34,819 bases of DNA, taken from an uncultured Bacteroidales bacterium (GTDB lineage: Bacteria > Bacteroidota > Bacteroidia > Bacteroidales > Paludibacteraceae). The stretch is taken from the NCBI GenBank assembly GCA_900319005.1, contig ONMV01000019.1, forward strand, positions 1 to 34,819, given 5' to 3'. Below the pieces are notes generated by a model that worked only from the letters and a program-made list of their open reading frames with translations, did no database searches and was not told the origin of the DNA. The translations under genes were made by a program, and so were the position numbers. Below, in pieces: positions 14,128 to 17,198 of the stretch; position 1 is the first letter of the stretch, and each line of letters starts with the position of its first letter.

Positions 14128-14430
14128 ATGCCAAAGATTTTTGAATACTTCGGATTTGTCTTTTTCTTCTATTCGAATGAACATGAGCCTATTCATGTGC
14201 ATGTCACCCATAAAGGATGTCAAAGTATTTTTGAACTTATTATGGATAATGGTGTTTTGGTAGAGATCCGAGTTCGCGAGAAGGCAGGGGAAGAACCGTT
14301 GTCATCCAAGGATCAAAAGACAGCCGAGGAATTTATTCGGAAATATAGCAAGAATATCATTACAAAATGGATTAAATTCTTTGTATTGAGGCAAGCAGTA
14401 AAAAGTACAACCATTAAAACCAAATTATAA
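14128..14430 (+). CDS. DUF4160 domain protein
   Basis: A 100-residue protein of the DUF4160 family, recognised from the N-terminal PKIFEYFGFVFFFYSNEHEP and IHVHVTHKG. The C-terminal half is lysine-rich and helical (EEFIRKYSKNIITKWIKFF). The biochemical role is not established; DUF4160 genes are very often followed by DUF2442 genes and the pair has been suggested to be toxin-antitoxin-like. The start is the ATG at 14128; a longer reading from TTG 14071 would begin inside the promoter. It lies two bases before the DUF2442 gene. Confidence 0.85.
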   Translation: MPKIFEYFGFVFFFYSNEHEPIHVHVTHKGCQSIFELIMDNGVLVEIRVREKAGEEPLSSKDQKTAEEFIRKYSKNIITKWIKFFVLRQAVKSTTIKTKL

Positions 14431-14432
14431 CT

Positions 14433-14687
14433 ATGAGCAGACTTTGTATAATAGGGGCAAAAGATGTGGGTAACTTCACTGTAGATTTGCAGTTTAGCGA
14501 CCAAACTACCCGCCGAGTGGATATAGGTGACTTCATCCGTCGTCACCCTCATCCGCAGTATAATAAGTATCTTGACCCTCGTAATTTTCGCCGTTTTGAG
14601 ATAGAAGACGGAAATATAGTGTGGGGCAAGAGTTGGGATTTGGTATTCCCGGTAGAACAGTTACACGCAGGTGTAATTGAAGGTTAG
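14433..14687 (+). CDS. DUF2442 domain protein
   Basis: An 84-residue protein matching DUF2442: FTVDLQFSDQTTRRVDIGDF, FRRFEIEDGNIVWG and WDLVFPVEQLHAG reproduce the family pattern of a small beta domain ending in a Trp-Asp-(hydrophobic)-Pro motif. The gap to DUF4160 is two bases, so they are co-translated. The pair may form a complex; a regulatory or antitoxin-like role for this partner is inference. The stop at 14685-14687 is followed at once by the strongly base-paired element at 14690-14866. Confidence 0.85.
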   Translation: MSRLCIIGAKDVGNFTVDLQFSDQTTRRVDIGDFIRRHPHPQYNKYLDPRNFRRFEIEDGNIVWGKSWDLVFPVEQLHAGVIEG

Positions 14688-14689
14688 TG

Positions 14690-14866
14690 CTACTGCTGGC
14701 ACCGACAGCGTTAAAAAGCGGTGACATATTGATATTCATGCAGTAGAGAAATCGCCAAATTCAAAGCAGTTTGAATATAAGAAACACAGAGAAACCCGAT
14801 TAGTGGTTTGCTTGTGTGTTTCTTGGGCGTTTGGCGATGCCCTCTACTGCGACAAGTGAACCACTA
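14690..14866 (+). ncRNA. Candidate structured RNA: three-way junction with crossing helix
   Basis: Helices seen by complementarity: P1a 14740-14748 with 14842-14850 (9 bp), P1b 14751-14759 with 14830-14838 (9 bp), P2 14760-14765 with 14770-14775 (6 bp), and P3 14779-14788 with 14815-14824 (10 bp, with an inner AAACC/GGTTT stem). A further helix, 14801-14815 with 14852-14866, is 15 bp with two G-U pairs and crosses P1; the last base of its 5' strand is shared with P3. The 5' segment CTACTGC (14690-14696) repeats the 3' strand of P1a (14844-14850) and could displace it. A small hairpin CACCG/CGGTG spans 14700-14723. The element ends 50 bp before an ATG. It could be a riboswitch-like leader, a free RNA, or a palindromic mobile element; strand is assumed from the flanking genes. 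Confidence 0.6.
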
Positions 14867-14916
14867 TTTTAATAAAACGGAGAATGCCGAAAATCCGATA
14901 AATCAACAATAAGAAC

Positions 14917-15219
14917 ATGATGAGTACAGCCGTGGAAAATATGTTGCAGAATCTAGTTAATAATCAGGTAGATCAAACTTACCATGGGCTCTCTTTTGTA
15001 TTCGAAGGAATTGCTGGGCAAATACACGATGATTCTATTTGGGGTATTCAAAACGACATAGATGATATAGCAGACTTTCTTGAAGATGCTTATGACGCAA
15101 GATTTCCGATTAATAACACAGCAAATAATGGAATGCAGATGCATGTACAACCTTTAGTCGTGAATGCTATAAGGTTGATAAGAAAGTATTGTCGGCTTAG
15201 ATATGGCATGAGATTGTAA
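14917..15219 (+). CDS. Hypothetical protein, 100 residues
   Basis: I do not recognise this family. The sequence is acidic in the middle (GIQNDIDDIADFLEDAYDAR) and basic at the end (IRLIRKYCRLRYGMRL), with no signal peptide or membrane helix, so it is probably a small cytoplasmic helical protein. ATG at 14917 and ATG at 14920 are both possible starts. It follows the structured element by 50 bp and would be the first gene under its control if the element is regulatory. Only about 28-35% of the bases around it are G or C. Confidence 0.6.
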   Translation: MMSTAVENMLQNLVNNQVDQTYHGLSFVFEGIAGQIHDDSIWGIQNDIDDIADFLEDAYDARFPINNTANNGMQMHVQPLVVNAIRLIRKYCRLRYGMRL

Positions 15220-16127: not shown

Positions 16128-17198
16128 ATGGCATACATTGACAAATATGGAGTAGAATTCTCCGATGACCGCAATATATTAGTGAAATGCCCTGAAAATT
16201 TTCAGGGAGAATATATTATTCCCGAAGGTGTTAAATGTATTGGAGATGGGGCTTTCTATGAATGTAAAAAACTCTTGTCGGTATCTATCCCCAATAGCGT
16301 GGTCTGTTTTGGAAATAATTCTTTCTCCTTTTGCACAGGATTGACTAAAGTTGCTATTCCCGAATGTGTAACAGACATTGGAATAGCCGCTTTTATGTGG
16401 TGTTCTAACCTATCTTCGATAACGATTAGCAACAGCGTCACTAGTATAGGAGATTATGCTTTTTTAGCTTGTTTAGGTCTGAATAGTATTGAAATTCCAG
16501 ATAGTGTTTCAAACATTGGAGAGAGGGTTTTTCAGGGATGTAATAATATCAAAGAAGTTCGTGTTCCAAAAGGACAAAAAGAACGTTTTGAGCAAATGGA
16601 AGGATTAAAAGACGTCAAGGATAAGATTGTTGAATTATCGTCTGAAAATCAAAAGTCAAGAACATGGGAAGAAGTTAATGCCGAATATCGAGCATATTTT
16701 GAGAAGAGACAAAAGGAGAACCCAAATATCCAAAATAAAAATGGTGGAACACCTTTGGAATTCCCTCCGTTTGGCATAGAACTGTCTATTCAAGAGTATT
16801 CTCAATTCAAAAAAGAGGGGCGCACTATCCACTCATGGATGTTTTGGTGTAAGAGCGGCAATGAAATACATGAGTTGGCACGTTTATATGGCCCGATAGG
16901 TGGGATAGGTCTGTCTACACCGAGACAGGGGTATTATAAAGTCGTTGAAATAGAAGGCGAAGGAAATGATACGATGTTAGTATGCTATTATAATCTTTTT
17001 TCGTCGGATGAGTTCCTTGAGGAGGAAGAAGATGAGAAAGTGCGCGTTAAGCAGAAACCGTTATTCAACAAACATTCCAGTTGTGCAGGACCAATTGATG
17101 TTGAAGATATTATTCATGTCAAATCTACCGAGTTAGTAGAAGACATTTATAATGGAAGAACATACCAGGCATACAAAATCAAATGGGAGTTTGTTTAA
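16128..17198 (+). CDS. BspA-type leucine-rich repeat (LRR_5) protein with unknown C-terminal domain
   Basis: A 356-residue protein. Residues about 28-150 are roughly five 23-residue BspA/LRR_5 repeats with the pattern IPNSV..FGNNSFSFCTGLT and IPDSVSNIGERVFQGC. Residues about 150-200 are charged and helical. The rest is a domain I do not recognise, including FGIELSIQEYSQFKKEG, GPIGGIGLSTPRQGYY and a C-terminal YKIKWEFV. There is no signal peptide or T9SS tail, unlike secreted BspA proteins, so it is probably cytoplasmic. LRR_5 repeats usually bind other proteins. The acidic stretch EFLEEEEDEKV interrupts the C-terminal domain. Its neighbours give no clear function. Confidence 0.75.
   Translation: MAYIDKYGVEFSDDRNILVKCPENFQGEYIIPEGVKCIGDGAFYECKKLLSVSIPNSVVCFGNNSFSFCTGLTKVAIPECVTDIGIAAFMWCSNLSSITISNSVTSIGDYAFLACLGLNSIEIPDSVSNIGERVFQGCNNIKEVRVPKGQKERFEQMEGLKDVKDKIVELSSENQKSRTWEEVNAEYRAYFEKRQKENPNIQNKNGGTPLEFPPFGIELSIQEYSQFKKEGRTIHSWMFWCKSGNEIHELARLYGPIGGIGLSTPRQGYYKVVEIEGEGNDTMLVCYYNLFSSDEFLEEEEDEKVRVKQKPLFNKHSSCAGPIDVEDIIHVKSTELVEDIYNGRTYQAYKIKWEFV

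Follow-up and report, generated by a model that had tools for sequence, protein, structure and literature searches.

To our knowledge, Bacteroidota have yielded few riboswitch-like systems relative to Firmicutes and Proteobacteria. Among described systems, GEMM-type second-messenger riboswitches occur in several copies per genome, upstream of diverse and often surface-related genes, and the put-like and EAR-like antitermination elements are RNAs bound by a protein or by RNA polymerase. The RNA family reported here resembles the GEMM-type riboswitches in its regulon only, its fold being different. With transcription-attenuating riboswitches it shares the character of a covarying structured RNA lying before genes, as well as a strand common to the fold and to a terminator-like stem. 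Unlike most riboswitch regulons, however, its genes show no common pathway among the Pfam families considered, and since the switched strand lies in the apical hairpin, the terminator helix would cross the closing helices instead of simply opening the helix P1. The DUF805b RNA (Rfam RF02914) is often found in the same leaders in the genus, between the element and the start codon, but it is a separate motif with a 35-position model, the core considered here being another RNA. Finally, motifs such as HMP2_1032 and HMP2_4205, presented in PMC8040213 (Fremin and Bhatt 2021) as palindromic Bacteroidetes candidates near TonB or TPR genes with predicted terminators, can be likened to the family in a comparison made between descriptions rather than between sequences. 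No paper was recognised as describing this RNA in the literature covered, which consisted mostly of titles and abstract openings together with parts of PMC2864571, PMC8040213 and PMC13370916. It is a real, phylum-wide leader RNA, apparently uncatalogued as judged from Rfam 15 and this literature search, and it is most likely a conditional terminator, a reading drawn from sequence comparison.

The window, that is, the whole stretch of DNA that was analysed, comprises 34,819 nucleotides of contig ONMV01000019.1 from an uncultured Bacteroidales bacterium of the Paludibacteraceae. The features on which the argument depends are the following.

14690..14723, + strand: PK-A, an H-type pseudoknot module, with S1 formed by GCTG (14695-14698) and CAGC (14706-14709), S2 by CACCG (14700-14704) and CGGTG (14719-14723), and an A-rich linker
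14740..14748, + strand: P1 5' strand (GCAGTAGAG), pairing over 9 bp with 14842-14850, supported by covariation
14741..14881, + strand: region matched by covariance model R3 with 38.9 bits (E 2.1e-5, 210,798 bases searched), the model having been built without window-type copies
14749-14750, + strand: conserved AA between P1 and P2, present in every row printed of one of the family alignments
14751..14759, + strand: P2 5' strand (ATCGCCAAA), pairing over 9 bp with 14830-14838, supported by covariation
14760-14765 and 14770-14775, + strand: 6-bp hairpin TTCAAA/TTTGAA, seen in window-type copies
14779-14788 (5') and 14815-14824 (3'), + strand: P3, the stem of the 10-bp hairpin, assigned from sequence pairing
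14801..14815, + strand: 5' strand of the crossing (T) helix, situated apically within the arm
14826..14828, + strand: pseudoknot 5' strand GGC, pairing with GCC at 14839-14841 and bracketing the P2 3' strand
14830..14838, + strand: P2 3' strand, supported by covariation
14839..14841, + strand: pseudoknot 3' strand GCC, part of the conserved GGN/NCC pairing
14842..14850, + strand: P1 3' strand, supported by covariation
14852..14866, + strand: 3' strand of the crossing (T) helix, 15 bp with some G-U pairs, followed by a weak U run (ATTTTAATAAAA)
14878..14902, + strand: degenerate copy of the known cis-regulatory DUF805b RNA (Rfam RF02914), scoring 21.9 bits (E 6e-4) where the gathering score is 35.6
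14917..15219, + strand: first downstream ORF (100 aa), without a Pfam match, the gene that the window copy would control

A preliminary description, made from the letters of the window, had proposed two 9-bp helices (P1 and P2), a 6-bp hairpin and a 10-bp hairpin arranged around a three-way junction, with a 15-bp helix crossing P1. All these helices are present in the window copy (14740-14866, + strand), and the three-way junction is there as well, since P2 encloses a junction with both hairpins. The GGC/GCC pseudoknot (14826-14828 with 14839-14841) is a pairing absent from that description, and GGTTT at 14805-14809, within the 5' strand of the crossing helix, also complements AAACC at 14792-14796. 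Folded as RNA, positions 14680-14880 reach -66.1 kcal/mol against a mean of -46.5 for shuffled sequences (z -4.70), none of the 200 shuffles being as stable; this value and the two-sided covariation among homologues bear out the proposal of a structured RNA. As had also been stated, the core matches no RNA class that can be named: known Rfam families, riboswitches included, do not reach threshold on it in the window, in 20 genus loci or in 20 wider loci. Rfam 15 gave no match at curated thresholds in the whole window, permissive thresholds applied to 14600-15000 returned, besides the DUF805b match, just one on the core, to a snoRNA and at chance level (14.8 bits against 45), and neither tRNA nor tmRNA was detected in the window.

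A 20-nt P1-P2 pattern recovered 11 stretches; the named genome records that contain them are all metagenome assemblies, of Bacteroidia, Bacteroidales or Paludibacteraceae. DNA similarity at E up to 1 extended to 59 of 61 genomes, and was strong in some of them only. The short DNA similarity had pointed to a repeat element with two conserved ends, an interpretation that was rejected because the ends are separate leader modules, PK-A and DUF805b, with different cores between them; 27-nt matches in Vibrio phages were taken as chance. The leaders are modular, being composed of an H-type pseudoknot (PK-A), a sequence-variable middle RNA and often a DUF805b RNA, followed by the start codon, and the middle RNA is the RNA family reported here. 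It is laid out as P1, a joint of AA or AAN, P2, an arm, GGN, 0-3 nt, P2', NCC, P1' and then a tail ending in a U run, with GGN and NCC covarying as GGC/GCC, GGT/ACC and GGG/CCC. A descriptor scan yielded 66 candidates (P1, a joint starting with A, P2 and NCC), 59 of them with a complementary GGN; the scan required an A after P1 and CC after P2' and selects on pairing, so this count is no test. Constant nucleotides are few in the alignments (AA between P1 and P2, TT after P2, GG and CC), their constancy being partly a selection rule in the building of the candidate sets, and conservation is stronger in shape than in sequence.

Three covariance models were built. R1, with 65 columns and the apical part represented as N, missed many long elements and, in the genome search, the window copy; R2 reached other families and in the genome search also missed the window copy. 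R3, which replaced both, was built from 22 sequences, of which 15 belong to other genera and none is of the window type, and its pairs are those of P1, P2, P4 and P5 only, the pseudoknot and tail-helix pairs not being built into the fit. Rows of the models were picked for visible pairing, so that pairing counts on those alignments are partly circular. In one alignment 12 of 13 rows were used (L031 was omitted, and L003 is without coordinates), and in another 6 of 34 rows were dropped as lacking P3 and 20 of the remaining 28 were used. The support for P3 is weaker, its counterpart having been tallied solely in rows selected for pairing. The window copy is a divergent member of this Bacteroidota RNA family.

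The common fold was tested on 28 sequences that do not belong to the order, 27 coming from the same class and one from another; none of them is in R3, although R3 found and aligned them. In these distant sequences 96.5% of 895 cells were paired, 23 of the 32 pairs changed on both sides and 123 cells were two-sided; none of 500 shuffles was as good, and when the partner was slid by 1-3 columns only 32-44% of cells remained paired. The GGN/NCC pseudoknot was paired in 100% of cells, its third pair being U-A, C-G or U-G. Moreover, one P5 pair was U-G in 23 of the 28 sequences, and the keeping of this wobble fits RNA rather than DNA. Conserved structure with compensatory changes, as looked for in riboswitches, is found in the family. 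The preliminary description had named homologues lacking covariation as evidence that would tell against it, and the covariance-model check that it recommended did recover such changes; its interpretation of the locus as a putative structured, switch-like RNA is supported.

The distribution of the family is wide. At E up to 0.01, R3 recovered it in at least 158 of 393 Bacteroidales genomes, representing at least 97 of 206 genera, and it was found in at least 58 of 395 genomes sampled across Bacteroidota, single-contig genomes of other orders included; 7 candidates per genome were scored, and these genome counts are therefore lower bounds. The window's own genome (2.2 Mb) holds 15 places at E up to 0.0122 among 18 listed, and 12 copies in this genome display the family layout by eye. 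The window copy was itself passed over by the first step of the genome search, though R3 finds it when given the sequence, which means that true copy numbers are higher. A leader so frequent, both among the genera of Bacteroidales and within this one genome, would rank among the commoner regulatory RNAs of the phylum. Plasmid copies are carried by two named organisms, Rhizosphaericola mali and Chryseobacterium shandongense, in which the family could be tested. As the nearest available control, viral loci chosen by a 16-nt seed (131 found, 124 of them listed and 100 tested) gave R3 matches at E below 1e-6 in 4 of the 100, and the loci L242, L243, L248 and L249, which bear family elements, lie on IMG/VR contigs.

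The crossing helix of the window copy is supported by other genomes across the family, in which the tail pairs with the arm. Over 92 distinct elements the best tail-arm complement scores 22.0 on average, compared with 13.5 when the arm is shuffled, and a score of at least 20 is reached by 61 of the 92 elements against 81 of 1840 shuffles. In 85 of these elements the 5' strand of the tail helix begins 0.50-0.80 of the way along the arm (in 71 with a score of at least 18), a position that corresponds, by eye, to the 3' arm of the apical hairpin. Of the tail-helix cells in the 22-row alignment 94.3% are paired, and 25 changes are two-sided; among the 28 distant sequences all cells (100%) are paired, the changes being mostly one-sided G-U and just 2 two-sided. 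A U run follows the tail in 28 of these 28 sequences, and terminator-like hairpins located past 57 cores of the first set have a mean score of 17.8 against 9.7 when shuffled. Some subfamilies could in addition form a second, local stem that overlaps P1'. Together, the conserved tail pairing and the U run suggest a conditional terminator in a 5' leader, and pairing exclusive with a terminator platform, another riboswitch trait, is seen at the pairing level only.

The mutually exclusive pairings that had been taken as typical of switches must be divided in two. The crossing helix is kept as an alternative to the apical hairpin, whereas the second proposed competitor, a 5' copy of CTACTGC, is private to the window copy: positions 14690-14696, within PK-A, do complement P1 at 14740-14746, but the motif occurs in 0 of 10 testable sisters, near-identical copies for which 70 nt upstream were inspected (the eleventh, L048, has just 29 nt). 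With regard to energetics, the apical fold beats a forced tail helix in 72 of 73 elements under nested folding, by a median of 13.7 kcal/mol, and the tail helix by itself contributes about -12.9 kcal/mol (median). As nested energies favour the apical fold, the tail helix would have to arise kinetically or sit alongside the inner helices in a pseudoknot, an arrangement unscorable by nested folding; for example, the tail could displace just the apical hairpin's 5' arm and leave the inner helices in place, the outcome being a pseudoknot.

The reading that we prefer, to which a probability of roughly 0.6 is given, is that of a cis-acting leader RNA with a conditional terminator. The sequence comparison shows, upstream of genes, an RNA made of P1, P2, the arm with its apical hairpin and the short pseudoknot bracketing the P2 3' strand, and a tail preceding the U run that can pair with the 3' arm of the apical hairpin, making the apical hairpin and the tail helix mutually exclusive; the two pairings are conserved throughout Bacteroidota. 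As to function, RNA polymerase would read through, with expression of the gene, as long as the apical hairpin persists; once the tail has captured the 3' arm, a stem would form against the U run and transcription would stop. A signal bound by the pseudoknotted core, whether a small molecule or a protein, would set the balance between the two states, and the genes under such control would be accessory ones of many kinds, often coding for exported proteins in Bacteroidales. This terminator design, with a competing helix that crosses the closing helices, is testable.

With a crude rule for export signals, 58 of 86 genes standing first after an element of the pooled first set were positive against 95 of 306 other ORFs, and so were 13 of 15 in the part of the first set lying outside the genus, all of it Bacteroidales. 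The R3-only sets gave 17 of 24 first genes against 9 of 31 other ORFs in Bacteroidales, and no export lean outside this order (8 of 23 against 11 of 36), so that on present evidence the enrichment is a Bacteroidales trait; within the order it would offer a handle on surface control. Downstream, Pfam assigned TonB receptor plugs to 6 of 54 proteins and BspA-type leucine-rich repeats to 6 of 64, besides lipocalins and CsgG, and also AbiH, NERD, HsdR and PvuRts1I-type proteins. No common pathway was apparent among the 54 and 64 downstream proteins, as judged from the best 25 of 57 and the best 25 of 50 Pfam families. In the window, 16128-17198 codes for a BspA-type leucine-rich repeat protein, a surface family found downstream of this RNA elsewhere, and window-type or related elements stand before defence-like genes at L039, L045, L032 and L033 (AbiH, NERD and HsdR N-terminal domain, by Pfam).

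A fuller version of the preferred reading, less likely than not, can be put forward tentatively, namely that the family may be a phylum-wide riboswitch class responding to a general signal, such as a second messenger or the state of the envelope, and governing accessory genes (in Bacteroidales mainly exported ones) by a strand exchange that produces a pseudoknotted terminator, the tail of the transcript displacing one arm of the apical hairpin and the pseudoknotted scaffold remaining folded. The unrelatedness of the genes, the small number of constant nucleotides and the keeping of shape over sequence would suit, on the other hand, an RNA that binds a protein or RNA polymerase itself, in the manner of the put-like and EAR-like elements and with no small molecule. 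Yet the strand preceding the U run takes part in an alternative pairing that is more suggestive of a switch than of a fixed antiterminator, and this account is considered rather unlikely.

A distinct question is the condition of the window copy, for a functional family may include a decaying remnant. The window-type subfamily has 11 other copies, found by pattern search and adjoining various genes, and 3 of the 11 have a common internal deletion that takes out half of the fold (L041, L043 and L046, where it lies between AACC repeats and occurs in at least two gene contexts). The window copy has its U run reduced to ATTTTAATAAAA, a degenerate DUF805b and no promoter-like motif within 160 nt upstream; its PK-A module starts 3 nt past the stop codon of the preceding ORF. 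With a long tail helix of 15 bp and a weak U run, this copy may rely less on termination, or it may be in decay. Against decay, the window copy retains intact versions of P1, P2, P3, the pseudoknot and the 15-bp tail helix, and the tail strand is kept in 8 of the 11 sisters, which leaves the remnant a possible but doubtful description of this copy.

In favour of the conditional-terminator reading of the family, a gene usually follows the element. A same-strand gene start lies within 300 nt in 78 of 91 cases in the first set, and in 22 of 25 and 19 of 29 in the R3-only sets, while convergent gene ends number 11 of 91, 0 of 25 and 2 of 29 in the same three sets; the first set (92 elements) was found partly through leader modules and is biased to leader positions. 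Location in a 5' leader, also expected of riboswitches, is thus seen by position only. This preponderance of same-strand over convergent genes is hard to reconcile with a free-standing small RNA that would always end at the tail, the downstream gene being its neighbour and not its target. Such an RNA would agree with the U run in 28 of 28 distant sequences and with the promoter-like TAnnTTTG found within 130 nt upstream of 37 of 76 elements, against 19 of 225 control windows that were downstream and largely coding; this motif equally favours a leader position. A constitutive small RNA, however, needs no apical hairpin competing with the terminator strand, and this explanation is held to be improbable.

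The weakest proposal, that the element acts at the DNA level as a palindromic mobile element or as an attC-like single-strand-folding recombination site travelling with accessory genes, would account for near-identical window-type copies adjoining different genes in different genomes, for structure kept over sequence and for copies on two plasmids and on viral contigs, but it is very hard to credit given the strand and position bias upstream of genes, the conserved U-G wobble and the U run, which point to RNA. Target duplications flanking the copies had been named in the preliminary description as a sign of a palindromic mobile element, and no flank repeat beyond chance was found at 11 window-type copies, that of the window among them, at least 23 of 200 shuffles reaching the longest shared flank word in each; element ends are uncertain in this test, and it detects repeats from about 6 bp upwards. 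A palindromic mobile element (MITE) was rejected on this lack of target-site duplication and on insertion that respects gene orientation.

As for the neighbouring modules, PK-A-like sequence is scattered through the genus, and the motif lies upstream of 43 of 76 genus-set elements, many of which were fetched for resembling it; the DUF805b core follows 24 of the same 76. Pairing of the PK-A pseudoknot was present at 49 of 78 sites against 534 of 1560 swapped controls, and support for this predicted pseudoknot is modest. PK-A occurs in many sequence variants, arranged in tandem in L003, L019 and L025. Type III antitoxins are tandem pseudoknots, and an identity of PK-A with such an antitoxin was considered because some copies are in tandem. 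PK-A is also found without the core in L010, L011 and L014, with a small gene on one side and a further gene or a tRNA-like sequence on the other, and in these three loci it is preceded by a gene end like that of the second of two small ORFs lying upstream of the element in the window (14130-14687). These two ORFs, for which Pfam returned nothing over 14433-14684, presumably resemble a DUF4160/DUF2442-type pair. The DUF805b RNA exceeds the gathering score at L005, L029 and L032 and falls just under it at L020, L024 and L026, where it lies between the core and the start codon. A further short motif, approximately GATG..CGATGGGATATAACCGCC, was seen by eye in L002, L005, L006 and L015, just 5' of start codons and downstream of the core or of DUF805b.
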